DNA of 53,731 bases from Candidatus Eisenbacteria bacterium (GTDB taxonomy: Bacteria > Eisenbacteria > RBG-16-71-46 > SZUA-252), in contig VBOZ01000002.1 of the NCBI GenBank assembly GCA_005893305.1, forward strand, positions 1,285 through 55,015, given 5' to 3'. Under the pieces are notes generated by a model. That model was not told the DNA's origin. It did not search any database and was given only the letters and a program-made list of their open reading frames with translations. Positions 35,397-53,618 of the stretch are shown here, one piece after another. Position 1 is the first letter of the stretch. The number at the start of each line of letters is the position of its first letter. A program made the translations under genes and the position numbers.

Positions 35397-38123
35397 TTGC
35401 GAGCGGCACGCGGCCTGTTCCTCTTCATCGTCCCACTGATCGCTTTCGCCGCCTCCGCGGTCCCCTGCTTCGCCCAGGACGAGTTCCTGATCAACGACGA
35501 TCGCGTCGACCGCAACCAGTGGGCGCCGCAGGCCGCGCGTGGCTCGACCGGTACCCTGGTCGTGGTCTGGATGGACGGCCGGAACATGACGGGGTCGGTC
35601 GTGGACTTCGACACCTACCTGGTCACGATCCGGAACCCGCAGGCGGTCGGCTCGACGGTGAACCGGCGCCTCAACGACGATCCGCCCGGCGCGCCCCAGG
35701 GATTCCCCTCCATCGACTCGAGCCCGGCGGGCACCTTCTTCTGCGTGTGGGAGGACAGCCGCGCGGGAAACCGGGACATCTACGGGGCGACCCTCGATTC
35801 GATCGGGCTCAGGATCACGCCCAACCTGCGCCTGAATGACGACGCTACTTTCTCGGAGCAGGCCAACCCCATCGTGACGGGCGTCGGCGCGAGCCGGTAT
35901 CTCGCCGCGTGGGGAGATCAGCGGCAGGGTCAAGGCGAGGTGTTCGCAGCCATGCTGACCAGCTCCGGGGCGCCGATCGGACCCAACTTCAAGATCTCGG
36001 CGGACCCGATTTCCGGGGGAAGCTACCAGGGAGAGCCCGCCGCCGACGCGCGGGCGGACGGCAGGACCCTCGTCGCCTGGCTCGACGGCAGGGAAGGTGG
36101 AACGGTGTTCGGCGCGACCTTCGACGTCTACGCGCAATGGCTCGACGGGGACGGTCAGCCGATCGGCGGCAATTTCAAGGTCAACGACACCGTCGGCCCG
36201 CAGCGCGATACGTCGGTCGCGGTCGCGGCCGACTCCACGGGCGGGTTCGTCGTCGCGTGGATCGATCGGCGCAACTTCCCGGGCGACGCGGGCGACGTGT
36301 ACGCCCAGCGGTACGATGCCGGCGGGAATTCGGTCGGAGCCAACGTGCGCGTGAACGACGATGGGCCCGGCCGCGAGCAGCGCGCGGTTCGCGCGGTCGC
36401 CATTCCGGGAGCGGTCTGCCTCATCTGGGAAGACCTCCGGGGAAACCTCGGCCTCGATTCGAACGTCGAGGCGGCGAGGATCCCTTTCGATTCGTCGCCC
36501 CCCGGAGCCAACTTCCGCGTCAACGTCTCCATTCCCGCGAGGCAGGGGACCCCGGGAGGGGTCTGGGACGGCCGAGACGCCATTCTCGCGGCGTGGGAGG
36601 ACGGGAGAAACGGAGCCCCCGACATTTACGCGATCTCGATTCTCTCGGACGGCACCCGGCGCGGGACGGAGACCCAGCTGAACGACGACGCCGCGCCCGG
36701 CGACCAGCGGCGGCCGGAAGTAGGGCGCGGTCCGGGACGTTACGTGGCGACGTGGACCGACCGGCGGAGCGGAACCAACGACCTCTTTGGCCAGTGGATC
36801 ACCTCGGCCGGAGGCCGCGACGGGCCGAATCACCGGATCTGGAAGGACGACGGGATCTCGCGACCGGTGTCGGCCGCTTCGGCGGTCGAGCCCGGAGGAT
36901 CCGCCCTCGTGGCGGTCCACCTGACGCGCGACTCCGACGCGGGGGAGATTCGGGGATTCTCCTACACGACAATCGGGGCGTCTCCGACCTCGAGCTTCTG
37001 GATCTCGGATAGTCTTCCCAGCGCGCAGGCGATTCCGGCGGTCACCGCGACCGCGTCCGGTTTCACGGCGGCGTGGCTCGATTCCCGCGACGGAATCCCT
37101 CGAATCTATGGGCAGCGGCTCTCGATAAGCGGCGCCCGCGTCGGGGGGAACCACGCGGTGCTCGCTGTCGAGCCGGCGGACCCTGTACTCGCCCTCGACC
37201 TGGACGCCGATCCGGCCGGCGGCTACTGGCTCTGCTACGCGGAGGGCATGACCGTCGACCAGCGCCTCTGGATCGTCCACCTGGATGCGAATCTTCTCGC
37301 CGATCGCGGTCCGATCCAGGTGGCGCCCTCGATGCCCGGCACGCGCGCCCACCCATCGATCGGCGTGGGGCCGGACGGCCGCGTCGAGGTTGCGTGGCTG
37401 GGCGCCGGCGTCGGCGGGCGTGGACAGTGCTACCACCAGGCCTTCGATCCGTCCGGCATCCCATTGAGCCCCGAATTCACGCTGGGCCCCGGGGACGGAG
37501 TGGAGACGCAGGCGGCGCCCCGCCTTTCGGTCGCGGGCGAGACGTCGATCGCGACATGGGAAGCCGACCGGGACGGGAATTGGGGCATCTGGCTCCAGAC
37601 ATTCACGCTGGGCGCGGTTCCCAAGTCGGGGGTCATGCGCATCGACCAGGACGTGCTGGGCGCCGACCAGCTCGACCCGAGCCCGGGCCTCGATCCTTCC
37701 GGCCGCGTGATCATCCTTTGGTCCGACGGTCGATCGGCCTCGAGCGGCACCGACATCTTGGGACGTGTGTTCTCATTCGGCACGACCGATGTCATCGAGC
37801 CTCCCTTGCCGCCGCCGGCGCCGCGCCCGGCACCGCCCCGCGCGCTCCGGGTCGGTCCGGCCCGGCCCAATCCGTTTTCCGGTACGATCGGGATTTCGGT
37901 GGAAGTGCCGGCAGCGCGATCGGCGCGCGTCACGGTCCGGGTGGTCAACGTCCGTGGAGAGGTCGTGGCCACGATCTACGATGGCCCGACCGCCGCGGAA
38001 CGGGTCCTGGTACGATGGGATGGTACGGACAGGCACTCGCACAAGGTGGGGAGCGGCGTCTACTGGATCGTCGCGGATGCAGGAGGGGAGCGCCGTGCGC
38101 TTCGCGTCGTCCAGCTTCGGTAG
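35397..38123 (+). CDS. Secreted repeat protein (propeller-like) with FlgD-like C-terminal domain
   Basis: 908 residues. A signal peptide (FLFIVPLIAFAASAVPCFAQ) leads into about 14 units of roughly 56 residues, each centred on [AV]W-x-D-x-R followed by a D-[IV]-[YF]-[GA] strand: clear copies start near 35559, 35744, 35908, 36076, 36254, 36423, 36591, 36749, 37071 and 37717, with weaker ones between. This is what a beta-propeller looks like, but the fold is inferred. The last ~90 residues (ARPNPFSGTI, VRVVNVRGEVV, VRWDGTD, SGVYWI) form a FlgD-Ig / type-IX-sorting-like tail. TTG 35397 follows GGAAAGGGTGG. Function unknown; probably cell surface or released. Confidence 0.85.
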   Translation: MRAARGLFLFIVPLIAFAASAVPCFAQDEFLINDDRVDRNQWAPQAARGSTGTLVVVWMDGRNMTGSVVDFDTYLVTIRNPQAVGSTVNRRLNDDPPGAPQGFPSIDSSPAGTFFCVWEDSRAGNRDIYGATLDSIGLRITPNLRLNDDATFSEQANPIVTGVGASRYLAAWGDQRQGQGEVFAAMLTSSGAPIGPNFKISADPISGGSYQGEPAADARADGRTLVAWLDGREGGTVFGATFDVYAQWLDGDGQPIGGNFKVNDTVGPQRDTSVAVAADSTGGFVVAWIDRRNFPGDAGDVYAQRYDAGGNSVGANVRVNDDGPGREQRAVRAVAIPGAVCLIWEDLRGNLGLDSNVEAARIPFDSSPPGANFRVNVSIPARQGTPGGVWDGRDAILAAWEDGRNGAPDIYAISILSDGTRRGTETQLNDDAAPGDQRRPEVGRGPGRYVATWTDRRSGTNDLFGQWITSAGGRDGPNHRIWKDDGISRPVSAASAVEPGGSALVAVHLTRDSDAGEIRGFSYTTIGASPTSSFWISDSLPSAQAIPAVTATASGFTAAWLDSRDGIPRIYGQRLSISGARVGGNHAVLAVEPADPVLALDLDADPAGGYWLCYAEGMTVDQRLWIVHLDANLLADRGPIQVAPSMPGTRAHPSIGVGPDGRVEVAWLGAGVGGRGQCYHQAFDPSGIPLSPEFTLGPGDGVETQAAPRLSVAGETSIATWEADRDGNWGIWLQTFTLGAVPKSGVMRIDQDVLGADQLDPSPGLDPSGRVIILWSDGRSASSGTDILGRVFSFGTTDVIEPPLPPPAPRPAPPRALRVGPARPNPFSGTIGISVEVPAARSARVTVRVVNVRGEVVATIYDGPTAAERVLVRWDGTDRHSHKVGSGVYWIVADAGGERRALRVVQLR

Positions 38124-40030: not shown

Positions 40031-42127
40031 GTGAGCTCCCTCGATCGGCTGGCCGTGGCGCCTGCCCCCGGCGCGACCGGTGCCGAGCATCGGCCCCGGC
40101 GGTACGGCGAGGACCGCCTCCACCTTCTCGTCCGCGACCCGCGGTGCGTCTTTGTGACCTGGGAGATCTCTCCGGCGCTCGCGGCGCTCGCCTCGGAGCG
40201 GGCGCGCGAGGAGAGGGCGCCCATCCGGTATCAGATCCGCGTCGAGCGGATCGAGGGCAAGGAAGCGGCAACCAAGGCCAGGGCATCGGCGGCCGGGGAA
40301 CCAGTGGCCGGGGAAGCAGTGGCCACGGTCGACCTCCCGAACGCGCTCGGGGACGACGGCTGGTACGTCGATCTTCCGACCTCGGGGGGAAACGTCCGCG
40401 CCGTGCTGGGGGTTGCTCTCCCGAGCGGCTTTCATACGCTCCTCTTCTCGCGGTGGGCGGCGGTGCCGCCCGAGGGCCCGAGCCTCGAGGAAGGGCGCTT
40501 GGACGCGAACGTCTCGGCGGCGGAGACGGCGCCAATCTCGAATCCCGACCGTTCCGGATATCTTTCAATCCTGCTCCACGCGCACTTGCCGTTCATCCGG
40601 CATCCCGAATACGAGGACTCGCTCGAAGAGCGCTGGCTGGACGAAGCGCTCATCGAAAGCTATCTCCCGCTCCTCCGCATGCTCGAAGGCCGCGCCGAGA
40701 GGCGCGCGCCGGGGCGGATCACCATCTCGCTCTCCCCGACCCTTCTCGCGATGCTCGAAGATCCGCTCCTTCGCCGGCGATTCGCGAAGCGGCTGGAGCA
40801 GCTCACCACGCTCGCCGATCGGGACGTAGCCCGCTATCGGGGCGATTCCCGATTCGGTCCGCTGGCCGAGCACTACGCCGAACGCTTCCGCGCCGCCCGC
40901 GTTCAGTACGAGGAGCGCTATCGCCGCGATGTCGCGGCCGCATTCCGGGAGGTGGAGGCGAGCGGCGTCGCGCGCCTCATCACGTGCGGGGCGACGCACG
41001 GCTTCCTTCCGCTCATGGATCTGCGCGAGCCGTCCTGGCGCGCGCAGCTCGGCGCCGCGGTCCGTGAGTTCGAGCGCCAGATCGGGCACCGCCCCGAGGG
41101 GATGTGGCTTCCCGAGTGCGGTTACGCACCGGGCGTGGAAGCGGTCCTGGCGGAACTCGGCGTCCGCTATTTCGCCGTCGACTCCCACGCGATCGAGCAC
41201 GCGCGCCCGCGGCCGGGGGCGGGGACCTACGCGCCGCTCCATGTCGGGGCCGGCGTCTTCGCCATCGGGCGCGATGCCGAGTCATCGCGGCAGGTCTGGT
41301 CTTCGACGGAGGGTTATCCGGGCGACCCTGACTACCGCGAGTACTACCGCGACCAGGGATTCGATCTGCCGCTGGAGGAGGTCCGAGAGTTTCTTCCGTC
41401 GGGGGGGACCCGGACCCACCTCGGGCTCAAGTACCACCGGATCACCGACCGGCGATTTCCTCACCGCGAGCCGTACGATCCCGAGACGGCGCTCGAGCGC
41501 GTTCGAGCGCACGCGGCGCACTTCGTCCGCGGCCGCGAAGAGCAGGCGCGGGGCGCGGCCCGGGGCATCGGGCAGGCCGCCTTCATGCTGGCCCCCTACG
41601 ACGCGGAGCTGTTCGGGCACTGGTGGTACGAAGGGCCGGAGTGGCTGGACCTGGTGCTCGACGGGATCGGGGCCTCCGACGTGCTGGACGCCACGGATCC
41701 CCTCGATGCGATTCGGCGGCTGCCCCGGGTCCACGCGGGGAGCCCTCACCTGTCAAGCTGGGGAGAGGGAGGCTACTGCGCGGTCTGGCTCGACCCAGTC
41801 AACGACTGGATCTATAAGCCGCTTCTTCGCGCGGCCGAGACGATGCGGGTCCTGGCCAAGGAGGGCGACCGTGGGGAACCGGCCAGAGCGCGCGCGCTCA
41901 AGCAGGCGGGACGCGAGCTCCTCCTCGCTCAGGCCAGCGATTGGGCCTTCATCATGAAGACGGGGACGCTCGTCCCGTACGCCCGCCGGCGCACGGAGGA
42001 GCACCTCGACCGGTTCGAGAGGCTGGCGACGGCGCTCCGCGGGGGAACGATCGACGAGGCGGAAGTCGCTGGAATGGAAGAGCGGTACGGCCTTTTTCCG
42101 GATCTAGACCCCGGGCTTTTCGCTTGA
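40031..42127 (+). CDS. GH57 1,4-alpha-glucan branching enzyme fused to a DUF4912 domain
   Basis: 698 residues, no signal peptide. The first ~160 residues look like DUF4912 (RLHLLVRDPRCVFVTWEIS, then VDLPTSGGNVRAVLG), perhaps a carbohydrate-related module. From about residue 180 it is a GH57/DUF1957 enzyme: LHAHLPFIRHPEYEDSLEERW, then ITCGATHGFLPL, the nucleophile Glu362 in GMWLPECGY, the acid Asp524 in LAPYDAELFGHWWYEGP, and the helical C-terminal part. These match alpha-1,6-branching enzymes of glycogen synthesis; amylase-type activity cannot be excluded. GTG 40031 with AAAGGA upstream. A promoter-like TTGACA overlaps its stop codon. Confidence 0.88.
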   Translation: MSSLDRLAVAPAPGATGAEHRPRRYGEDRLHLLVRDPRCVFVTWEISPALAALASERAREERAPIRYQIRVERIEGKEAATKARASAAGEPVAGEAVATVDLPNALGDDGWYVDLPTSGGNVRAVLGVALPSGFHTLLFSRWAAVPPEGPSLEEGRLDANVSAAETAPISNPDRSGYLSILLHAHLPFIRHPEYEDSLEERWLDEALIESYLPLLRMLEGRAERRAPGRITISLSPTLLAMLEDPLLRRRFAKRLEQLTTLADRDVARYRGDSRFGPLAEHYAERFRAARVQYEERYRRDVAAAFREVEASGVARLITCGATHGFLPLMDLREPSWRAQLGAAVREFERQIGHRPEGMWLPECGYAPGVEAVLAELGVRYFAVDSHAIEHARPRPGAGTYAPLHVGAGVFAIGRDAESSRQVWSSTEGYPGDPDYREYYRDQGFDLPLEEVREFLPSGGTRTHLGLKYHRITDRRFPHREPYDPETALERVRAHAAHFVRGREEQARGAARGIGQAAFMLAPYDAELFGHWWYEGPEWLDLVLDGIGASDVLDATDPLDAIRRLPRVHAGSPHLSSWGEGGYCAVWLDPVNDWIYKPLLRAAETMRVLAKEGDRGEPARARALKQAGRELLLAQASDWAFIMKTGTLVPYARRRTEEHLDRFERLATALRGGTIDEAEVAGMEERYGLFPDLDPGLFA
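40291..40320 (+). repeat. Two tandem 15-bp units in the DUF4912 part
   Basis: GGCCGGGGAACCAGT is followed directly by GGCCGGGGAAGCAGT (one mismatch). In frame they encode AGEPV and AGEAV, forming an alanine/glycine-rich insert in the DUF4912 domain of the branching enzyme; likely recent slippage. Confidence 0.85.
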
Positions 42128-42151
42128 CAGTGGTGCGCGCCTCTTCATACT
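42124..42151 (+). promoter_or_regulatory. Putative sigma-70-type promoter before the EB_dh-like lipoprotein gene
   Basis: A perfect -35 box TTGACA (42124-42129) and a -10-like CATACT (42146-42151, 4 of 6 matches) are 16 bases apart, 44 bases before the ATG at 42196. The -35 overlaps the stop codon of the branching-enzyme gene. Seen in sequence; use as a promoter is inferred. Confidence 0.5.
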
Positions 42152-42195
42152 CTACGGCAGTTCCCCCCCAGGTCCGAATGATCCGAGGAGTCCAG

Positions 42196-43404
42196 ATGTT
42201 TCGCGCGCGCCTCATCCGAGCAGGGATTCTTTTTGCCGTCGCCGCCGCGGGAACGACCTCGTGCGGCAAGACCCAATTCACGCAGCCCAATCTCAAGACC
42301 GGCGTCGTCTCGGTGCAGGGGTTCGAGCAATATTTGAACTCGGCGCAGAAGGAGTCGCGAGAGCTCCTCATCGACGGCCGCGTGACCAACATCGAGTGGG
42401 ACCTGACCGGGAATCCGTCCGTCGTCCTCCTCGAGGGCGGGGCCGGCGGAAACTACTACGTGCTCGTTCGAAGCCTCTGGACGCTCGACAAGTTCGGCGA
42501 GACCGACGGGTTCTACCTGCTCCTCGAGTGGCCGGACCGGATCGAGAACCGTCTGGAACAGCCGCTCGTCACGAGCGCGGACGTGCTCTCCGACACGGGC
42601 GACACCCTCATCGATTGCTCGAGCGACGCGCTCATCCGGGAAAGCTCCTGGTCGCGGTCCCCGCTGAAGGAAGATCAACTGTCGATCGAGCTCTTTTCCG
42701 ACTCCCTCGGCTCCTATCCCGCGGACGTTTGGCGGTGGGGAGCGGAGACGACCGATCCCTGCACCCCCGTCAACGGATCGGAATTCACCGGGGCGATCAC
42801 GGACGGCGACACGCTGGGTTCCACGACCCACCCCGCCGCCGGCTACCTGGAGGACCTCTACGACGTGGGAGGCGGGCCCGTCCGCGACCAGGGGAGCTGG
42901 ACCTACATCTTCGACAACCACAACCCCGGATCGAACGTTCCTCTCTTCATCACCTCGAAGGGGTCACGCGACAGCAGGCTGAATCGCGCCAAGCCGACGG
43001 CCTACGTCCTGTGGCATTCGGTCGAGAAGCCCTTCCAGGCGTGCGAAAACGGTCATCCGCCGGACAATCCGATTCGCGAGGACGACGCGAGCGTAAGGGA
43101 CAAGAGCTGGAATCCCGGGGATTATGTTCCGGCCTTCAGCACCAGCATGCCCACGGAAAGCCAACGCGACGTGATCGGCAAGGGCCAGTGGCTCGCGGGG
43201 AAATGGGCTCTCGAAGTGAGGCGTGATCTCACGACGCTATATCAGCCGCCCGACGTAAACGGTGTGCGTCAGGCTCCAATACCGCGTCTCGACGACGTGC
43301 AGCTCGTGCCTGGCCGCAGGTACATGATGCGGATCTCGATCTACGACGGCACCACCAAAGCGACCAGCCGGTCGCAGTTATTCCCCATCTACCTGAGGCC
43401 GTGA
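42196..43404 (+). CDS. Lipoprotein with ethylbenzene-dehydrogenase-like (EB_dh) haem-binding domain
   Basis: 402 residues. The signal sequence ends in the lipobox-like TTSC, so the mature protein is probably lipid-anchored. The rest follows the EB_dh pattern: LIDGRVTNIEWDL, a short strand-rich YYVLVRSLWT, then SPLKEDQLSIELF, DVWRWGAETT, GKGQWLAGKWALEVRRDL and DDVQLVPGRRYMMRISIYDG. In known members this domain binds haem b as the gamma subunit of ethylbenzene or selenate dehydrogenases; here no catalytic subunit is near, so electron transfer is only a possibility. ATG 42196 is preferred to 42178 because CGAGGAG is 5 bases before it. A putative barrel protein follows after 13 bases. Confidence 0.75.
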   Translation: MFRARLIRAGILFAVAAAGTTSCGKTQFTQPNLKTGVVSVQGFEQYLNSAQKESRELLIDGRVTNIEWDLTGNPSVVLLEGGAGGNYYVLVRSLWTLDKFGETDGFYLLLEWPDRIENRLEQPLVTSADVLSDTGDTLIDCSSDALIRESSWSRSPLKEDQLSIELFSDSLGSYPADVWRWGAETTDPCTPVNGSEFTGAITDGDTLGSTTHPAAGYLEDLYDVGGGPVRDQGSWTYIFDNHNPGSNVPLFITSKGSRDSRLNRAKPTAYVLWHSVEKPFQACENGHPPDNPIREDDASVRDKSWNPGDYVPAFSTSMPTESQRDVIGKGQWLAGKWALEVRRDLTTLYQPPDVNGVRQAPIPRLDDVQLVPGRRYMMRISIYDGTTKATSRSQLFPIYLRP

Positions 43405-43417
43405 GCCCGACCTCCGA

Positions 43418-45025
43418 ATGACATCTACGGCCAGTCCCGCCAAGGGCCGCGCGATCGCGACGGACGCCCTGCCGTATTGCCGGCCGGCGTTCCTGCTGCT
43501 GCTCTCCCTCGCGTTGCTCCACCCTTCGCCCGCCCGCGCGCAGGTCGCCGATGCCTGGCTTCGCTACACGCCGGTGGAAGCTTACGCGGGCAATCGATCC
43601 ACGCGCCTCGACGGGATGGGATCGATGGAGGTCGCGGTCGAAGACGACCGGAACCTGATCGATCCCTATCATTACGGCCGAAACCCGGCCGCGCTCCTGA
43701 TGTCCCGCGACACCTCCGCCGTCGTGATCCCGACCAGCTATCAGAATTTCGACGATCGCTACTACGGCATGGGCCACAGCGCCGTGGGGCGCTCCGCGGG
43801 ATTCCACGGCGAGTTCCGGCCGAATTCCAAGTGGGGGATGGCCGCAGATTTCGATTACGGATCGCTCAACGCGAGCCGCCATGACCTCTGTCCCTCCCCG
43901 GACGACTGCCGCTTCATCCGCGATTTCGATCTGCCCGTGGCCCCTCAGATGGCCCCCGTCACGGGCGATCGGACGTTTGCCGCGGGCGTGCAGACCCCGC
44001 TGGCCACCGTGACCTATGCCCGGAACTTCTTTTCGAACGTGACGCTCGGGGCTCGCTTCGGCTTCCGGCACGAAAAGGAGAACCGGCGCATCCGCGAGCC
44101 GTACGATCTCGACGTGGCCAGCGATGCCACCGAGTTTACTGGCGGCGCCATCTATCCGTTGCCGATCTGGGGCGGATCGGCCACGCTCTCAGGCTTTGCC
44201 GGGTACTTGCGTCACCGGGTCGTGGGCCGGAGTCAGTCGGCGCTCAACGACGACGAATACGCTTGGGATCGTCCGCAGGTCAGCTACGGCGGCGCGATCC
44301 ACGTGAGCCGGGGCAGATGGCTCCAGGGGATCGTCGACGGCCGCCACCGCTCCTTCGACGGGGAAGAGGTCGCGCGCGTCAATTGGGCCCCCCAGTTCTT
44401 CATGAATCCGAACCCCTCGGAGAACGACCAGGCGAACGTGTTCAAGAAGGACTGGTCCGCCTTCCTGAGCGGGTTGCGGCACAACGAGGGAAGCACGCGA
44501 TGGCTGATTGGGCTCCCGGCGCACATTCATCTGGGTCTCAGCTATGCCTATTACCGCGAATACGAGTGGATCCACCCCAACGAGGTCGTCCTTCCGACCG
44601 TCGAGACGCTCGACGTGAGGCGCGCCGGCTACCGTTTCGCGAGCGGCTTCTCGGTGGGCGGTCCCGACCAAGGCTTGGTCGCGGTGGAAGCGCGAATCGC
44701 TCGGGAGTTCCGCCAGGACTTCACGAACCAGCTCCCGGATATCTCCCCCCTCACTTATACCTATCACTTCGGCGCCGAGTATCCGGTGCGGCCGCGCTTC
44801 CCGCTGCGTGGGGGAGTCGAGCTGATCCGCCACGACCCCAACTCGACCGACGCCAACGCGCCCGTGAAGGGGATCGGCGTGACCGCGGGCGCCGGGTATT
44901 TCGGGGGCGGCGCGCGGATCGATCTCGCGTACTCGCACTACCACTTCCATTCCTCGCCGGGCGATCCGTCCGAAGAGATCGGCTTCGGCGACCGCATGAC
45001 GCTTACCATCCAGCGCCTCTTCTAA
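43418..45025 (+). CDS. Putative outer-membrane beta-barrel protein
   Basis: Not recognised as a named family. 535 residues with a signal peptide (hydrophobic AFLLLLSLALLHPSPARAQ after a longer polar n-region). The mature part has alternating hydrophobic/polar strands and many aromatic residues (YYGMGHSAVGRSAGFHGEF, TVTYARNFFSNVTLGARFGF, AHIHLGLSYAYYREYEW), and ends LTIQRLF with a terminal phenylalanine, the usual signal for BAM-dependent barrels. No CxxCH haem motif and no TonB plug. ATG 43418. It follows the EB_dh-like lipoprotein by 13 bases and may work with it. Confidence 0.7.
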   Translation: MTSTASPAKGRAIATDALPYCRPAFLLLLSLALLHPSPARAQVADAWLRYTPVEAYAGNRSTRLDGMGSMEVAVEDDRNLIDPYHYGRNPAALLMSRDTSAVVIPTSYQNFDDRYYGMGHSAVGRSAGFHGEFRPNSKWGMAADFDYGSLNASRHDLCPSPDDCRFIRDFDLPVAPQMAPVTGDRTFAAGVQTPLATVTYARNFFSNVTLGARFGFRHEKENRRIREPYDLDVASDATEFTGGAIYPLPIWGGSATLSGFAGYLRHRVVGRSQSALNDDEYAWDRPQVSYGGAIHVSRGRWLQGIVDGRHRSFDGEEVARVNWAPQFFMNPNPSENDQANVFKKDWSAFLSGLRHNEGSTRWLIGLPAHIHLGLSYAYYREYEWIHPNEVVLPTVETLDVRRAGYRFASGFSVGGPDQGLVAVEARIAREFRQDFTNQLPDISPLTYTYHFGAEYPVRPRFPLRGGVELIRHDPNSTDANAPVKGIGVTAGAGYFGGGARIDLAYSHYHFHSSPGDPSEEIGFGDRMTLTIQRLF

Positions 45026-45047: not shown

Positions 45048-46496
45048 ATGAAGGATCTCGCCCACCTCGCTCTCGACACGGCCGTCGCGCGCGGCGCCGA
45101 GTTCGCGGACGTCCGGTTCCTCGAATCGGAGCGTGAAGACCTCCAAGTCAAGGACGGACAGGTTGGCGGCGTCGATCGCTCGGAGACGCGCGGGATCGGA
45201 GTTCGCGTTCTCCACCGGGGCGCCTGGGGCTACGCGGGCAGCGACGTGCTCACCCGGCAAGGCGTGGAGGCGTGCGCGGCCCACGCCGTCGCGCTGGCGC
45301 GGGCGAGCGCAACCGTCCGACGCGAGCCGGTCATCCTCGCCCCCGAGCCGCCGCGTCGCGCCACGTGGAGCTCCGACTGCGCCATCGATCCCTTCTCCGT
45401 GCCGCTCGAGAGGAAGCTCGACCTCCTGTTCCGCGTGGATGAGGCGCTGCGCCGCGTGAAGGGCGTCTCGATCGCCGAGGGGTTTCTCACCTTCGTCCGG
45501 AAGCGCCAGCTCTTCCTGAGCTCGGAGGGCTCCGAGATCGATCAGACCACCACCCGATCCGGCGGCGGCTACAGCGCCACGGCGATCTCGGGTGGCGAGG
45601 TCCAGAAGCGGAGCTTTCCCCAGAATGACGGGCAGCACCAGACGCTCGGCTTCGAGTTCATCGAATCGGTTCCCTGGGTGGAGAACGCGACCCGCGTCGG
45701 GGAAGAAGCGGTCGCGCTCTTGACGGCGGATCCCTGCCCCGGCGGGGAAGCCGACATCATTCTCGAGGGCTCCCAGCTCGCGCTCCAGATCCACGAGTCG
45801 GTGGGCCATCCCTCGGAGCTCGACCGCGTCCTGGGCATGGAGGCGAACTACGCGGGGACCAGCTTCCTCACGCTCGACCGTCTCGGGACGCTCCAGTTCG
45901 GATCGGGGATCGTGAACCTCGTGGCCGACGCCACGCTCCCCCACGGTCTGTCGACCTTCGGGTTCGACGACGAGGGCGTTGAGGCCCAGCGCTGGCACAT
46001 CGTGAAGGACGGCCTCTTTTCTGGATACCTGACCTCGCGCGAATTGGCGGGTCGCGTCGGAGAAGGGCGGAGCCGCGGCTGCGTGCGATCCGACGGTTGG
46101 CACCACATTCCGATGATCCGCATGGTGAATCTGGGCCTGATACCCGGGAAGGGATCGCTTGAGGATCTCCTGGCCGACACCGACCGCGGCATCTACATGG
46201 AGACGAATCGGAGCTGGAGCATCGATCAGCTTCGGTACAACTTCCAGTTCAAGACCGAGATCGCCTGGGAAATCCGGAAGGGCCGCCGCGTGCGGATGCT
46301 GCGCAATCCCACGTACCAGGGCATCACGACGAAATTCTGGAATTCGTGCGACTTCATCTGCGGGCCCGAGGCATGGGCGCCCTGGGGCGTGACAAACTGC
46401 GGGAAGGGACAGCCCGGCCAGGTCGCGGAGATGACGCATGGCGCGGCCCCGGCGCGATTCCGCGGAGTCCGCGTCGGCGTGGGCTACGATGACTAG
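45048..46496 (+). CDS. tldD: TldD-type metalloprotease
   Basis: 482-residue subunit of the TldD/TldE peptidase, cytosolic. The zinc site HExxxH is HESVGH (His249, Glu250, His254) in ALQIHESVGHPSELDR; the third-ligand cysteine region is CGKGQPGQ near the C-terminus. The N-terminal domain shows ADVRFLESEREDLQVKDG and SETRGIGVRVL, typical of the family. TldD/E degrades unfolded peptides and matures some ribosomal peptides (microcin B17) in E. coli. The ATG at 45048 lies 22 bases after the barrel gene. The end overlaps tldE by 8 bases. Confidence 0.95.
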   Translation: MKDLAHLALDTAVARGAEFADVRFLESEREDLQVKDGQVGGVDRSETRGIGVRVLHRGAWGYAGSDVLTRQGVEACAAHAVALARASATVRREPVILAPEPPRRATWSSDCAIDPFSVPLERKLDLLFRVDEALRRVKGVSIAEGFLTFVRKRQLFLSSEGSEIDQTTTRSGGGYSATAISGGEVQKRSFPQNDGQHQTLGFEFIESVPWVENATRVGEEAVALLTADPCPGGEADIILEGSQLALQIHESVGHPSELDRVLGMEANYAGTSFLTLDRLGTLQFGSGIVNLVADATLPHGLSTFGFDDEGVEAQRWHIVKDGLFSGYLTSRELAGRVGEGRSRGCVRSDGWHHIPMIRMVNLGLIPGKGSLEDLLADTDRGIYMETNRSWSIDQLRYNFQFKTEIAWEIRKGRRVRMLRNPTYQGITTKFWNSCDFICGPEAWAPWGVTNCGKGQPGQVAEMTHGAAPARFRGVRVGVGYDD

Positions 46497-47835
46497 GGAC
46501 GAGGCGCGGTCGGTTCTCGAGCAGGCGCTGAGCGTCGTCGGCGAAGGGGAGGCCGAGGTCGCCCTCGGCGGCGGCACGAGCCACCTGACGCGCTTCGCCA
46601 ACAACGAGGTGACCCAGAACGTATCGGAGCGCCGGTTCGTGCTCTCGATGCGGGTCGTGCTGGGGAAGCGTACCGGCCGCGCGAGCGGGAACGATCTGAG
46701 TCGAGCAGGCGCGGAGCGTTTGGCCCGGGCCGCGACGGCGGCGGCGCGACTCCAGCCCGAGATCCCCGACCTCCTTCCTCTCCCGGGTCCCCAGACCTAC
46801 CGCACCGTCGACGCGGACGACGAGGCGACGGGCCGTCTCGGGCCGGAGGAGCGCGCGCGCGAGGTCGGCCGCGCCGTGGAGCGCTGCGTCAAGGCCGGCG
46901 TCACCGCAGCCGGGATCTACGAGACGGGGCGGGGAACGATCGGCGAGTACGGCGAGCTGGACACGCTCGCGATCGCGAACAGCCGCGGGCTCTTCGCTTA
47001 CCACCTCGGGACCGACGCCGCGTTTCGAATCTCGGCCCTCGACGGCGCCGCCTCCGGATGGGCCGCGAGGGAAAGCTACCGGGCCGGCGACATCGATGGA
47101 GAGGCGCTCGCGGCGCGCGCCGCCGACAAGACGATCCGCTCGCGCGATCCGGTCTCCTGGGATCCAGGGCGCTACACCGTCGTGCTCGAGCCCGATGCCG
47201 TCGCGGATCTTCTCACCGACATGTCGTGGATCTCGGTGGGTGCGCTCGCGGTGCAGGAAGGTCGGAGCTTTCTCTCCGGACGGATCGGGCAGCGCGTCGT
47301 CGGGGAAAACATCACCCTGAGGGACGATCCGTACCATCCGCTCCACCGCGGCTCCCCGTTCGACGCCGAGGGGATGCCGACGCAGCCGACGACGATCATC
47401 GAACGGGGCGTGGCGAAGACGCCGGTGTACGACCGGCAGACCGCCGCCAAGGATGGGCGCGAGTCGACCGGCCACGGGCTCCCGGTTCCGAATACGATCG
47501 GCCCCCTGGCCCATCATCTCGTGCTGGAGGGTGGGAGCGGCCCGGCCGAGGACCTGATCCGGGGAATCGACCGGGGCCTCTGGGTCACGCGCGTCTGGTA
47601 CACGAACGTGGTCGACCCCAAAACCGTGACCTTGACCGGAATGACCCGCGACGGCCTCTTCGCGATCGAGAAAGGGAAGATCACGCGGGCGGTCCGTAAC
47701 TTCCGATTCAACCAGAGCGTCGTCCAGATGCTGAACGAGGTCGAGGCCATGTCGGCCCCCGAGCGGGCGGGGGGCGTGGTCTGTCCGGGGCTCCGCGTCC
47801 GGAATTTTCATATGTCGAGCGTCACCGAGTTTTGA
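46489..47835 (+). CDS. pmbA: TldE/PmbA-type protein, partner of TldD
   Basis: 448 residues. It has the same fold as TldD but lacks HExxxH: where TldD has the zinc site, it reads EPDAVADLLTDMSWIS. RFANNEVTQNVSERRFVLSMRVVL at the start is characteristic (in parts: RFANNEVTQNV, then MRVVLGKRTG). The C-terminal QMLNEVEAMSAPER is in the position of the TldE-like tail. Overlap of 8 bases with tldD (ATG 46489) gives balanced production of the heterodimer. The non-catalytic subunit closes the substrate channel in the known complex. Confidence 0.93.
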   Translation: MTRDEARSVLEQALSVVGEGEAEVALGGGTSHLTRFANNEVTQNVSERRFVLSMRVVLGKRTGRASGNDLSRAGAERLARAATAAARLQPEIPDLLPLPGPQTYRTVDADDEATGRLGPEERAREVGRAVERCVKAGVTAAGIYETGRGTIGEYGELDTLAIANSRGLFAYHLGTDAAFRISALDGAASGWAARESYRAGDIDGEALAARAADKTIRSRDPVSWDPGRYTVVLEPDAVADLLTDMSWISVGALAVQEGRSFLSGRIGQRVVGENITLRDDPYHPLHRGSPFDAEGMPTQPTTIIERGVAKTPVYDRQTAAKDGRESTGHGLPVPNTIGPLAHHLVLEGGSGPAEDLIRGIDRGLWVTRVWYTNVVDPKTVTLTGMTRDGLFAIEKGKITRAVRNFRFNQSVVQMLNEVEAMSAPERAGGVVCPGLRVRNFHMSSVTEF

Positions 47836-48076: not shown

Positions 48077-48126
48077 GTAATGACCCCAACGTGATGGCAC
48101 AGCCGACGAAAGGAGCGCTCCACGCC

Positions 48127-50877
48127 ATGCCGAGCTACGCGTCGCGACGCGGCGGCTCCCTCAACAAAACTCCGCCGTCACTCGCCTTCGTTTTTCTCGC
48201 GGTTCTTTCCGTGCTGTTCGCAGACGCCGCGTTTGCCCAAACGGGTACGGTGACCGGAAAGGTCACCGACGCCTCGGGTATTCCCCAGCAGTTCGCGAAC
48301 GTCACGATTCTGGGCGCCCAGAGCGGCGGCCCGACCAACGCGCAGGGCATCTTCACCATCATCAAGGTCCCCGTGGGCGTCTACACGGTGCGCGTCAGCA
48401 TGCTCGGCTTCGCCAAGCAGGAGCGCCCCGGCGTCCGCGTCGACGCGAACAAGACGACGAACCTCGAGTTCAAGCTGACCGAGGAAGTAGTCAAGATGAG
48501 GGTCGTCGATGTCGCGGGCGACCTCAAGATCGCCATTCGCAAGAAGGACAGCTCCACCAAGCAGATCGTCACCGCCCAGGATCTCCACTCTCTCCCGGTC
48601 GACAGCTACAAGGACGCGATCGGGCTCAAGGCCGGCGTCATCAGCCAGGGAGGCGAGCTCCACTTCCGCGGCGGGCGCGCCGATGAGGTCCTCACGGTCG
48701 TCAATGGGATCGCCAGCCGAAACCCGCTCCGCGCCGAGGGCGTGGACCTGGGCCTCCTGGCCGTCTCCTCGAGCGAGCAGGTGCTGGGAGGACTGGACGC
48801 CCAGTACGGGAACGCGCTCTCGGGGGTGATCAACCTGACGACGCGCGAAGGCGGCGACAAGTTCGCGGGCGAAGCGCGGTACTTCACCGATCGCTACGGG
48901 GAGCACGACAAGGAATTCAATAATTTCGAGCGGCTGAGCGTCGGATTGGGCGGGCCGTTCCTCTTCGACAAGACGAAGTACTACATTTCATACGAGGGGA
49001 CGTACACCGACACCTACCTCCGCAACACCACGGTGCACAACGAGCACCGCTTCCTGGATTTCATCCGGGTCGGGCTCCGGCAGGCGAACGCGTCCAACAT
49101 TTCGAGCAAGCTCACGTACAACGTCACGCCGAACGAGAAGTTGAACGTCGAGTTCATTCAGAACAATTCCATCGACAGCCGGTACCACAATCGGTGGAAC
49201 CGGAAGGGATTCGTGCAGGTGATCCAGGACAGCACGGCCCCGACCGACGGGAACGTCACGACCCGCTACGGCCATTGGTCGTACTACCCGGTCGATTCCA
49301 GCTACATTCCGATGAACACGGCGGATCATCTTCCGGTCGTCGACGCGAGCTATCAGCAGGTAGCCCTCACCTGGCGGCACGTCCTTGGATCCCAGAACGG
49401 CGAGATCTACAACATCCGCACCTCGCGCCAGCAGTGGGTGTCCCTCGAGGACGTCCTGGGCCGGCAGCTCTGGGAGTACATGCAGAGCCCCAATCAGTAC
49501 TACGACCCGCTGAACCGGATCGACGGCGCGTACTACGTGACGAACGGCGATTATCCGTTCTACGAGCGCCGTCACACCGTCACCTACACGCTGAACGGCG
49601 ACTACTCGAGAAAGCTCGGCAAACCCATCGAGCAGGGTGGCCATCCGCACAACATCATGGTGGGCGGCGACATCAACTACAACGACCTCTCGTTCCTCCT
49701 CGCCCAGTTCCCGAACGTGCTTGACGCGAACGGCGACTACGGAGCGACCCGGGACGAGTTCCAGAACTACAACCCGGAGGGCTCCTTCTTCGCGCAGGAT
49801 CGCTGGGAGTACGAGGGGATGGTGTTGAACGCCGGGTTCCGCTACGACAGCTTCTCGGTCGGAAACCAGATCTCGTCGGCCGAGGTCGCCCACAAGGTGA
49901 AGACGCAGTGGAGTCCGCGCATCGGGATCGCCTATCCGATCTCGGATCGGGACGTCATGAGCTTCCATTACGGCCGGCTCTTCCAGGTGCCGGATCGCCT
50001 CTATCTCTATCAGGGGCGGAACATCTCCGCGGAAGCGCGTGGGAATCCGAACCTCGAGCCCCAGACCACGATCTCCTACCAGCTGGGCGTGCAGCATCTG
50101 TTCAGCAAGGAGATCTACGGCCAGTTCGGCGTCTACTTCAAGGACATCTACGGCCTCCTGACCACGGTGGACCAGGAGGTGCCGGGGTTCGCGATCACGG
50201 TGCCGACACGCGTGAACGGCGATTACGCCTCCTCGCGCGGCATCGAAGCCACCGTGATCAAGAGGCACAGCCACGGTTTCTCGGGCGAGCTCAACTACAC
50301 CTACAGCAACTCGACCGGGACGGCGTCGGATCCGAATCGCGCCCTCGCGAGCTCGGGCAACATCCGCGACCAGTACAAGCCCACCTCGGAGCAGCCGCTC
50401 GAGTGGGACCAGCGCCACACCATCGCGGCGACGCTCCGCCTGGGGAACGAGAAGGATTGGGCGGCCAGCTTCGTCTACCAGTTCGGCACCGGCCTACCGT
50501 ACACGCGGCAGGAACGGGAGCAGCGCCGGATCGATCCGGCGACCGTGAATGCGAGCAGGCTCCCCACAACCTCCACTCTAGCGGTCCAAGCGGAGCGGTT
50601 CTTCCGTGTCTGGGGTCAGAGCGTGACCTTTTACCTCCAAGGCACCAATCTGCTCGACGCGGAGAACATCACCGAGTTGCAGCCGAGCCTCTGGCCGAAC
50701 AACCAGATCAACGGCACCTCGTATGTGACCTACTACTCAGAGACGGGCCGAGCCGGTGGAGCATTCCTGACCCAGGATCTGAACGGGGACGGTCGTGAAG
50801 ACTGGTTCCCGGTCAACGATCCGCGCGTCTTCCAGCAAGGGCGCGTCATCCGGGTCGGAGTGGGAGTCCAATTCTAA
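48127..50877 (+). CDS. TonB-dependent receptor with N-terminal carboxypeptidase-regulatory-like domain
   Basis: 916 residues, outer membrane. Signal peptide (FVFLAVLSVLFADAAFAQ), then a CarboxypepD_reg-like beta-sandwich (TGTVTGKVTDASGIP, NAQGIFTIIKVPVGVYTV), as in SusC/CirA-like receptors of the FCB group. The plug domain has LKAGVISQGGELHFRGGRADE and LDAQYGNALSGVINLTTREG; the long remainder is a 22-strand-type barrel ending VIRVGVGVQF, with the terminal phenylalanine. The substrate is unknown. ATG 48127 is preferred (AAAGGAGC upstream and a proper signal peptide); GTG 48091 / ATG 48094 are in frame. A surface protein follows after 2 bases, probably its partner. Confidence 0.88.
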   Translation: MPSYASRRGGSLNKTPPSLAFVFLAVLSVLFADAAFAQTGTVTGKVTDASGIPQQFANVTILGAQSGGPTNAQGIFTIIKVPVGVYTVRVSMLGFAKQERPGVRVDANKTTNLEFKLTEEVVKMRVVDVAGDLKIAIRKKDSSTKQIVTAQDLHSLPVDSYKDAIGLKAGVISQGGELHFRGGRADEVLTVVNGIASRNPLRAEGVDLGLLAVSSSEQVLGGLDAQYGNALSGVINLTTREGGDKFAGEARYFTDRYGEHDKEFNNFERLSVGLGGPFLFDKTKYYISYEGTYTDTYLRNTTVHNEHRFLDFIRVGLRQANASNISSKLTYNVTPNEKLNVEFIQNNSIDSRYHNRWNRKGFVQVIQDSTAPTDGNVTTRYGHWSYYPVDSSYIPMNTADHLPVVDASYQQVALTWRHVLGSQNGEIYNIRTSRQQWVSLEDVLGRQLWEYMQSPNQYYDPLNRIDGAYYVTNGDYPFYERRHTVTYTLNGDYSRKLGKPIEQGGHPHNIMVGGDINYNDLSFLLAQFPNVLDANGDYGATRDEFQNYNPEGSFFAQDRWEYEGMVLNAGFRYDSFSVGNQISSAEVAHKVKTQWSPRIGIAYPISDRDVMSFHYGRLFQVPDRLYLYQGRNISAEARGNPNLEPQTTISYQLGVQHLFSKEIYGQFGVYFKDIYGLLTTVDQEVPGFAITVPTRVNGDYASSRGIEATVIKRHSHGFSGELNYTYSNSTGTASDPNRALASSGNIRDQYKPTSEQPLEWDQRHTIAATLRLGNEKDWAASFVYQFGTGLPYTRQEREQRRIDPATVNASRLPTTSTLAVQAERFFRVWGQSVTFYLQGTNLLDAENITELQPSLWPNNQINGTSYVTYYSETGRAGGAFLTQDLNGDGREDWFPVNDPRVFQQGRVIRVGVGVQF

Positions 50878-50879
50878 CC

Positions 50880-53618
50880 ATGACCCAATCGCGAGCGTTG
50901 TTTTACGGGCGACGCGCCGCCTCCTTCGCCGCGGCGTTGATTCTCTGGGCCGGGGTGACGGCGTTCTATCAGCCGCCCGATGATCCCGAGGGTGGTGCGA
51001 AGCAGTACCAGAACAAGACGTTCCGGCTGGACGGAAAGTTCGTTCACAACGTCGGCCGGCTCCATCTCCAAATCACCAACATCGGACAGACCGGGAACGC
51101 GGCGAACCCGTCGCGAACGACGGTCCCGTCCGCGGAGTATCCTCCCGGCTCCGGCTTCGACCATCTCTACGCGGCGGGCCTCTGGGTCGGCGCCATCGAC
51201 GCCAGCGGGATTCCCCATGTGACGACGGCGGCCTACAACGTCGAGTTCTCCCCGGAGACCAACCCCAAGGACGCATGCGTGCCCCTTCCGATCGACCAGG
51301 TCGCGGACGTGCGTGAGGCGTACGAGGGCATCCCCGGGGGAAACCGGGTGATCTCGGCCAGCTTGAGCCCGGACGACGACAACGACGGGCTCGTCGACGA
51401 GGACTTCTTGAACGGAATCGACGACGACGGTGACGGCCTCTGCGACGAGGACTACGCCGCCATCGGCCAGCAGATGTTCTCGTGCGAGTATCGGGACGAC
51501 CTGCCCGCGATACGGCAGATCAACCCGGAGCACGTCGCCCTCGGGATCCGCGTTCGCCAGACCAGCTACGCTTGGTCGACTCCGGGCCAGAGCGATTTCG
51601 TGGGCATGGACTATCGGATCACAAACCAGAGCGGCCGCGCCATCCGGAACGTATACGTCGCGATCTTCGCGGATCCCGACATCGGTAATCGCGCGGTTAC
51701 CGGCTATTTCCAGGACGACGAAGCGGCGCTCTTCGACTCCGTGGTGACGTATCTCGGCCCCGCCGGCGAAACGGTGAAGCGCAGGATCCAAATGGCGTAC
51801 GCCTGGGACAACCCGGACAATCCGGCCCGGCCGCAGGACAACAAGGGCGGCGACGTGCCGGGGGACGGATATTTCGGCTGCATGTTCCTCAACCACACGA
51901 CCGACCCGTCGGGCGCCACGGCGCCTCCCCATGTCGGCATCACGTCGTTCAAGTTCTTCTCCGGCTCGGCCTCGTTCGGAGCCGGAGGCGACCCGGAGAA
52001 CGACGCCCAGCGGTACCAGCTGATGTCGGATCCCCGCTTTAACCCCAACAATCCGAACAACACCATCAACCCGAAGTCGGACCGCCCGCTCGACTACCGA
52101 TTCATCATGGCGACGGGACCCTTCCGGCAGATTCTGCCGGATTCGACGCTCACCGTGTCGGTGGCGTGGGTGGCGGGGCTCGGACACGGCGGCCCGAACG
52201 ACGTGAACCAGACTCTGGTCGGCAACGCTATCTCAGCCCAGCAGGTCTTCGACGGCCTCTACACGGACCTCGACAACGACTTGACGACGGGTACCTGCGG
52301 CAAGGAGACCTGCCTCAGAAACACGAGCGGTGGAAGAGCGTTTACGTACGAGCTTCCCGAGTCCTCGATCTGCCGCATCCGCTTCCACAGCGAGATCCCG
52401 AACGACCCGAAATACGACGGAATCTCGGCATGGGATAACAGCATCCCGTGCGATACCCAGCAGGGAGGGAAGTTCCTCTGCCTCGACAATCCGGGCCCGC
52501 CCCGGCTGACGCACTGCGCCTCGGCGGACACGCTGAACCTGCTCGTCAGCGGTACCCAGTGCACCTACGTGGACTTCGATTGCGACGTCAACACGGGTCA
52601 GGGCGGCCGAGAACAGATCGTGAACTGGGTCGCCGCGGCGCCGCTTCCATCCCCGTTTTTCCAGGGCAACAACGGGAACTCGGAGCCCAGGGATTTCCTC
52701 CCCATATACGAGAGCCATTCGGATTCGGCGCGGATATCGGCCTGGTATTTCCCGGGGGACACCAAGGTTACTTTGAAGTGGAGCAACTTCGCGGAGCAGA
52801 TACGGGATGCCCAGCGGGGAAATCTCAAGGAGTTCGTCGGCTACCGGATCTACAAGGCCGCCGGCTGGAACCGCCCCCTCGGCACGAACGCTCCCGCCCA
52901 AAATCTCTGGACGCTCCTCGGCGAATGGCGGGCCAACCCCAAGGGGACACCGGCCCGACCGCTCGGAGAGCTGATCGATCCCAGCGCGCCCCTCGTGGAG
53001 CGGCACGACGTCAAGGTTCGGTGGGACCCGGTGGCCCGACGCGTCTACTCCGATACGACGAATTACACGGAACGGGACACGCTCTACGCGATCGGGCGCT
53101 ATAGCTACGTCGACGACAGGGTGTTGAACGGGTTCCCCTACTTCTACTCGATCGTTCCGGTTTCGATCGTCCCCGGGGAGACCTCGGCAACCGACGTGAT
53201 CCTGAGCGGGAACCCGAGCGCGACCAACGCGCAGGTGGTCTATCCGCGAGGCTCGTCGCAGGCGACGGAGAAAAACGTCTTCGTCGTCCCGAATCCCTAC
53301 AAGGGACACGCGCAGTGGGATCTGATCCCGCGCGAGGAGGACCCGTCGGGCACCAAGGTGACGTTCATGAATCTGCCTCGGACCAAGGGAACCATTCACG
53401 TCTACACCCTGGCCGGGGACCTGGTGGTCGACATTCCGTTCGACGGCCGGGCCCCCTCCGATCTCCAGTTCGGCAAGGATCCGGTTACGGCCGGACAGGG
53501 CTCGAAAGCGTGGAATCTCATCTCGCGGAACGGCCAGAGAATCGTGAGCGGGATCTACCTCTATTCCGTCGACTCCGAGCTGGGGAGGAAGGTCGGCAGG
53601 TTCGTGATCATACGATGA
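50880..53618 (+). CDS. Large secreted surface protein with Asp-rich calcium-type loop and FlgD-like tail
   Basis: 912 residues. The N-terminus (RRAASFAAALILWAGVTAF) is a signal peptide or anchor. Around residues 160-185 two Asp-rich repeats, DDDNDGLVDEDF and DDDGDGLCDEDY, look like calcium-binding loops. The middle is beta-rich with several cysteines and DYRITNQSGRAIRNVYVA-like phrases seen in large FCB extracellular proteins. The C-terminal part has VFVVPNPYKG, IHVYTLAGDLV and SGIYLYSVDS, a FlgD/type-IX-like sorting domain. It starts two bases after the TonB receptor stop, so the two are co-expressed; it may be a surface substrate-binding protein. Function unknown. Confidence 0.82.
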   Translation: MTQSRALFYGRRAASFAAALILWAGVTAFYQPPDDPEGGAKQYQNKTFRLDGKFVHNVGRLHLQITNIGQTGNAANPSRTTVPSAEYPPGSGFDHLYAAGLWVGAIDASGIPHVTTAAYNVEFSPETNPKDACVPLPIDQVADVREAYEGIPGGNRVISASLSPDDDNDGLVDEDFLNGIDDDGDGLCDEDYAAIGQQMFSCEYRDDLPAIRQINPEHVALGIRVRQTSYAWSTPGQSDFVGMDYRITNQSGRAIRNVYVAIFADPDIGNRAVTGYFQDDEAALFDSVVTYLGPAGETVKRRIQMAYAWDNPDNPARPQDNKGGDVPGDGYFGCMFLNHTTDPSGATAPPHVGITSFKFFSGSASFGAGGDPENDAQRYQLMSDPRFNPNNPNNTINPKSDRPLDYRFIMATGPFRQILPDSTLTVSVAWVAGLGHGGPNDVNQTLVGNAISAQQVFDGLYTDLDNDLTTGTCGKETCLRNTSGGRAFTYELPESSICRIRFHSEIPNDPKYDGISAWDNSIPCDTQQGGKFLCLDNPGPPRLTHCASADTLNLLVSGTQCTYVDFDCDVNTGQGGREQIVNWVAAAPLPSPFFQGNNGNSEPRDFLPIYESHSDSARISAWYFPGDTKVTLKWSNFAEQIRDAQRGNLKEFVGYRIYKAAGWNRPLGTNAPAQNLWTLLGEWRANPKGTPARPLGELIDPSAPLVERHDVKVRWDPVARRVYSDTTNYTERDTLYAIGRYSYVDDRVLNGFPYFYSIVPVSIVPGETSATDVILSGNPSATNAQVVYPRGSSQATEKNVFVVPNPYKGHAQWDLIPREEDPSGTKVTFMNLPRTKGTIHVYTLAGDLVVDIPFDGRAPSDLQFGKDPVTAGQGSKAWNLISRNGQRIVSGIYLYSVDSELGRKVGRFVIIR

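Follow-up and report, generated by a model that had tools for sequence, protein, structure and literature searches.

The window, by which we mean the whole stretch of DNA that was analysed (53,731 nucleotides of a Candidatus Eisenbacteria genome), carries a gene for a predicted lipoprotein that is followed, after a gap of 13 bases, by a gene for a putative outer-membrane β-barrel of 535 residues. Both open reading frames, and the gap between them, are as the original prediction had described them. The genes and features of the locus are the following.

42124 to 42151, + strand: promoter-like sequence TTGACA-16-CATACT, from a motif search and a comparison of family upstream sequences; the GH57-type gene before it ends within its TTGA
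42196 to 43404, + strand: predicted lipoprotein of 402 amino acids (ATG at 42196, stop at 43404), a remote EB_dh (PF09459) homologue without haem ligands
42262 to 42264, + strand: codon of the predicted lipidated Cys23 (TTSCG), read from the sequence and invariant in a five-row alignment
42694 to 42723, + strand: shortened loop, residues 167 to 176, where alignments place GCx3CH in relatives and a Met in haem b gamma subunits
43345 to 43377, + strand: C-terminal loop, residues 384 to 394, in the place of the Lys ligand or of the HxGS His; Thr390 aligns with that His
43418 to 45025, + strand: putative outer-membrane β-barrel of 535 amino acids (ATG at 43418, stop at 45025) with an N-terminal FadL/PorV-like motif, the core gene of the locus
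45048 to 46496, + strand: TldD-type metallopeptidase, lying between barrel and TonB receptor in families f1 and f6 (profile match and locus comparison)
46438 to 47835, + strand: its TldE/PmbA-type partner (profile match and locus comparison)
48091 to 50877, + strand: TonB-dependent receptor with an N-terminal CarboxypepD_reg domain (Oar-type architecture), conserved downstream of the barrel
50880 to 53618, + strand: secreted protein of 912 amino acids, a relative of which has a weak FlgD-Ig/T9SS-type C-terminal domain

The lipoprotein, the barrel and their upstream region

The N terminus of the 402-residue protein reads as a hydrophobic leader that ends in TTSCG. S22, C23 and G24 are all invariant in the five-row alignment, and C23 is nearly invariant in an alignment of the lipoproteins that bear CX3CH. 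A leader peptide with a conserved cysteine identifies the product as a predicted lipoprotein. Against the EB_dh profile it scores 24.2 bits (E = 3.9e-5, residues 174 to 390), below the curated cut-off of 33.3 bits. Within the window's family the cut-off is exceeded by G006 (39.3 bits; 42.8 bits for L028, which is G006) and by G005 (35.2 bits, in a frame that includes neighbours), and relatives in the class reach up to 81 bits. Because orthologues pass the cut-off and class relatives score so high, the homology proposed in the original prediction is real, and the window protein is a true but remote EB_dh homologue rather than a scoring member. It is the only PF09459 match in the window's genome (2.75 Mb, 95.8 percent complete), and its only significant solved relative is NXR-C (7b04_C; profile E = 1.2e-7). 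An AlphaFold model from five sequences has a mean pLDDT of 34.4.

The model of the 535-residue protein has 18 strands at low confidence (mean pLDDT 47.5). In VIA-align it gave Z scores of 14 to 17 (up to 16.9) to outer-membrane porins and TonB receptors, which lead the best 50 matches listed without FadL being singled out among them, whereas Foldseek ranked FadL first with low TM-scores of about 0.3. On these Z scores the modelled protein has the closed fold of a transmembrane barrel, in line with the barrel that had been proposed. Its N-terminal RLDGMGSMEVAVEDDRNLIDPYHYGRNPAAL can be aligned with the motif found in the PorV-family protein encoded at this locus (hhalign probability 54 percent, E = 1.2e-4). 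Toluene_X is matched weakly by 3 of 20 members of the barrel family (E up to 0.1), no Pfam family was found for the window's barrel, and against PorV_fam it scores 18.9 bits with a cut-off of 90. Kinship to FadL rests on the short N-terminal motif and the Foldseek rank, since a search of the barrel profile against PDB sequences gave no match and VIA-align did not single out FadL. The barrel has a FadL/PorV-like N terminus and is a member of neither family.

The original prediction had also placed a promoter-like sequence of its own ahead of the pair. TTGACA-16-CATACT occurs once, against 0.4 ± 0.7 in shuffled sequences, and is not significant alone; the −35-like hexamer TTGACA is kept in all six upstream regions of the window's family, although four of its bases (TTGA) also belong to the last codons and stop codon of the gene before it. 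What supports the prediction here is the conserved hexamer. Two further elements recur ahead of the lipoprotein start in the family (42150 to 42195 in the window), a C tract of about CCCCCC and a stretch resembling GATCCGAGGA. The gene directly upstream (40031 to 42127) encodes DUF4912 fused to a GH57-type branching enzyme, a relative of which occupies the same place in f6 loci. Two further proteins adjoin the locus, one encoded at 35397 to 38123, whose relatives were grouped from family f1 loci only, and one in a frame ending at 40011, with a FlgD_ig C terminus.

Haem ligands and their loss

The haem b of the gamma subunit of EbDH is ligated by Met and Lys (PMC8840923), and that of NXR-C by Met155 and Lys305 (PMC8387239). 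In the window the first ligand loop is shortened to FSDSLGSYPADVW, and in the alignment it holds no Met, His or Cys in any of the seven members of the window's family. The C-terminal loop of the window protein reads TTKATSRSQ. The column of the Lys ligand is occupied by Gln in the alignment with NXR-C and by Ala in that with L078, and none of the seven members has Lys at the EbdC/NXR-C ligand position in either alignment tried. The Met and Lys axial ligands of an EbdC/NXR-C-type haem b gamma subunit are thus absent. L078, a gamma subunit in Eisenbacteria that served as positive control, retains FMMG in this loop and, close to its C terminus, KHWS; its gene comes after a frame with many cysteines of the iron-sulphur type. 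Haem binding by the window lipoprotein, against which the original prediction had itself counted missing ligands, is therefore not borne out.

The same loop holds GCx3CH, a predicted haem c site, in 13 of the 22 Eisenbacteria lipoproteins and in none of the seven of the window's family. In ten aligned motif-bearing relatives GC...CH is invariant, with CX3CH spacing. CX3CH is missing from nine lipoproteins (the seven, G012 and G014), and by different routes: in the window's family the loop is shortened, in G012 it is kept with Cys and His replaced, and in G014 it is deleted. A His in the C-terminal HxGS loop accompanies CX3CH in 12 of 13 cases (the exception, G020, has Gln in its place) and is found in none of the nine proteins that lack the motif. 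Outside the phylum, L139, L144 and L145 retain this His without CX3CH, so the residue is not a strict haem marker and need not be a ligand. CX3CH was also seen in EB_dh proteins outside the phylum (L141, L134, L135, L133, L136, L138 and L143); that of L141 follows a region resembling HEAT repeats, and L143 has three EB_dh frames in tandem.

A tree built without the motif columns and without L078 (L079, which had no match to the lipoprotein profiles, was left unused) requires the motif to have changed twice within the phylum, once on the branch leading to f1 and G012 (support 89/91) and once in G014; G012 forms a long branch. CX3CH is present in 7 of 12 outgroup rows, and this distribution favours loss, with at least two changes inside the phylum. 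A sign test on the joint loss of CX3CH and the HxGS His gave p = 0.5, from only two independent pairs and hence with no power. Cytochrome c assembly (PF01578) has three matches in the window's genome and is kept in G014, and none was seen in G012 or in the motif-bearing G020. Lack of this machinery as the cause of haem loss is rejected for the window's genome and for G014, both of which keep it.

With the Met and Lys positions, CX3CH and the C-terminal His all absent, no known mode of haem b or haem c ligation in the EB_dh fold is left. The haem-less gene is nevertheless no relic: it is under purifying selection, with dN/dS of 0.16, 0.21, 0.23 and 0.32 in four haem-less pairs of the window's family, where pairs of the barrel gene gave 0.13, 0.19 and 0.30.

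Distribution of the pair and its surroundings

The phylum sample comprises 47 genomes, 22 of which, from nine families, carry the lipoprotein. In all 22 the barrel gene follows directly on the same strand, mostly at short spacing and after about 210 bases in family f6. A failure of the two genes to occur together elsewhere, which the original prediction would have taken as refuting it, is thus not seen for the lipoprotein, but the barrel also stands without a lipoprotein. Families f8 (20 genomes) and f11 (one genome) gave matches to the barrel profile and none to the lipoprotein, and in all 15 loci recovered (14 of the 20 f8 genomes and the f11 genome) the TonB receptor comes next after the barrel, with no lipoprotein detected. 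A phosphomannomutase gene lies upstream of the barrel in 13 of these 15 loci, the other two beginning inside the region, and a methylpurine-DNA glycosylase gene lies between the two in both f8 loci tested. Four genomes outside f8 and f11 that gave no lipoprotein match (G001, G008, G022 and G031) have contigs that end beside or inside the locus, with the barrel of G022 at a contig edge, and say nothing on absence. Within the phylum the lipoprotein is thus tied to the barrel, which can itself do without a lipoprotein; since the barrel stands without one in f8 and f11, it is the core of a phylum-wide locus to which the lipoprotein is an add-on. Outside the phylum, weaker lipoprotein relatives were found in 14 of 338 genomes, and no barrel of this family was seen at the 14 loci taken from 10 of those 14 genomes.

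Downstream of the pair the order is the TonB receptor (preceded by TldD/TldE in f1 and f6), a large protein and a PorV-family protein. The receptor with CarboxypepD_reg is present in 18 of the 18 loci that reach so far, the large protein, of roughly 810 to 950 residues, in 15 of 15, and the PorV-family protein in 9 of 10. The exception is G019, in which the large-protein gene is a 247-residue open frame (L152) and no PorV match occurs in 8.5 kb; masked bases are present there. On the window's contig the PorV-family gene is found at the window end and beyond it and is followed by a gene for a GWxTD-domain protein, and the PorV-family proteins of two relatives score 194 to 196 bits against the NCBIfam cut-off of 90. 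The comparison shows the barrel to be part of a phylum-wide locus of barrel, Oar-type TonB receptor, large secreted protein and PorV-family protein.

The large protein of the window matched no Pfam or NCBIfam family, and one of its relatives has a weak type IX sorting tail (18.5 bits, cut-off 23). SprA, of the type IX translocon, exceeds its cut-off in the window's genome (G000) and in 38 of the 47 phylum genomes in all; two published abstracts describe type IX secretion as confined to Bacteroidetes. SprA-family genes were noted at G000:C17:189626-193924 and in 42 other phylum genomes. GldM (the GldM/PorM motor subunit) matched none of the 47 genomes, and the control genomes were likewise without a match. 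As the original prediction stated, no molybdenum enzyme accompanies the pair: neither molybdenum alpha nor Fe-S beta subunits were seen among the neighbouring genes examined. Apparent type II DMSO-reductase-like operons with an EB_dh gamma subunit of their own occur elsewhere in the phylum (L162 in G022 and L163 in G020). Receptors of the Oar subclass bear PF13620, and Oar is required for secretion of the protease PopC in Myxococcus (PMC6434023).

Interpretation and comparison with known systems

Taken on their own, the neighbours favour an export or assembly role for the locus in which the lipoprotein would be accessory to the barrel, with uptake as the main rival; what points to surface export or assembly is the Oar architecture, SprA in the genome and the weak type IX tail in a relative. 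At a probability of about 0.5, the window encodes a lipoprotein of the EB_dh fold which, having lost its haem, has been kept as an accessory subunit of the barrel in a surface export or transport locus. The ancestral lipoprotein of the phylum would have carried one covalent haem at GCx3CH. The window's family would later have lost the loop, with purifying selection still acting on the protein, so that what was conserved would be the β-sandwich and its partner. The lipoprotein may sit in the outer membrane docked on the barrel, capping or guiding it, while the locus would export or assemble the large surface protein, a cargo on which the TonB receptor and the PorV-family protein would act as well. 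Neither the lipoprotein nor the haem is essential to the locus, because f8 and f11 lack the former and the window's family the latter. Adjacency does not prove contact, since barrel and lipoprotein may both be simply inherited vertically.

The original prediction was of a lipoprotein that binds haem b through Met and Lys and forms with the barrel an outer-membrane haem or electron-transfer pair. The EB_dh homology, the conservation of the gene pair and the c-type haem motif in 13 of the 22 orthologues all speak for it, but the ligand loop has neither Met nor His nor Cys in the seven family members, all of which also lack the Lys ligand; with the barrel, besides, conserved without any lipoprotein in f8 and f11, such a pair is highly improbable in the window. 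Ligation of haem or another metal by different residues is very unlikely too. His212 is invariant in the family alignment, and His residues also remain in EB_dh proteins from other phyla that lack CX3CH; against this, His212 is the sole invariant His, no Met is invariant, and it lies in a stretch not common to the haem-bearing relatives. That the two are merely adjacent envelope genes, sharing a promoter and not a function, would agree with the entry of other genes, TldD/TldE, into the same locus and with a barrel that manages without the lipoprotein in f8 and f11. It is an unlikely account of a lipoprotein that never occurs without an adjoining barrel in 22 genomes of nine families, at a spacing that is mostly short, though not in f6.

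The EB_dh fold resembles CBM9/DOMON-type sandwiches, and a haem-less version might have become a ligand-binding domain that serves SusCD-like uptake together with the TonB receptor. The retention of the lipoprotein without haem would fit, as would the downstream receptor with its CarboxypepD_reg domain and, in the window, a weak SusC/RagA score. However, the same receptor locus occurs without the lipoprotein in f8 and f11, the family profile search gave no SusD or carbohydrate family match for the window lipoprotein, and no glycan utilisation genes were seen at the locus beyond the GH57 branching-type enzyme of some families; uptake is rather unlikely on this evidence. For the window we retain the haem-less accessory subunit of an export or transport locus. 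The haem-bearing relatives are a candidate outer-membrane redox module. It may tentatively be supposed, at well below even odds, that most families have an undescribed module of this kind. In it an EB_dh cytochrome, held by a lipid anchor and carrying one haem c on the unusual CX3CH motif, would dock on a porin-like barrel in a protein-export locus, and at least two lineages, that of the window included, would have turned it into a structural subunit without haem.

The EB_dh domain and the barrel types are already known kinds, as is the haem c variant found among EB_dh-like proteins (PMC3578206). As far as the searches show, the combination of lipoprotein and barrel with haem loss in place is undescribed in the open-access literature searched. 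It presents a cytochrome-like domain retained beside a barrel after the loss of its cofactor, and it draws attention to an envelope locus that is conserved in an uncultured phylum. In the haem-bearing versions the idea of a single-haem protein within an outer-membrane locus can be put to the test, and the window copy is a warning that an EB_dh match alone does not mean haem.

The window lipoprotein has a domain homologous to that (PF09459) of EbdC, NXR-C and DdhC, the haem b gamma subunits of type II DMSO reductases. It differs from them in lacking the Met and Lys ligands, in being a predicted lipoprotein and in having a barrel as partner, with no molybdenum enzyme seen at the locus. The alternative NxrC of Nitrospina combines a DMSO-reductase-like haem domain with haem c binding sites (PMC3578206), and in this it resembles the Eisenbacteria relatives with GCx3CH; the window copy lacks the motif, and its partner is a barrel rather than an NXR complex. 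With FadL/TodX and PorV-family barrels the window's barrel has in common an N-terminal MGG...D...NPAG-like motif, whereas it has about 18 modelled strands and does not reach the family cut-offs. Cyc2 has a single haem. It is a fused cytochrome-porin (PMC10654088). The haem-bearing Eisenbacteria relatives resemble it in pairing one predicted haem c domain with one barrel. Here, in contrast, the genes are separate, the haem domain is a different one and the window copy is haem-less, so that the haem-bearing partner of an Mtr/Cyc2-type porin-cytochrome conduit is missing from the window. The CarboxypepD_reg receptor likewise recalls the Oar-subclass TonB-dependent transporter (PMC6434023) and stands here beside a probable secreted protein. 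Export by this locus is putative, and to the Oar arrangement this locus adds a barrel, a lipoprotein and a PorV-family protein.
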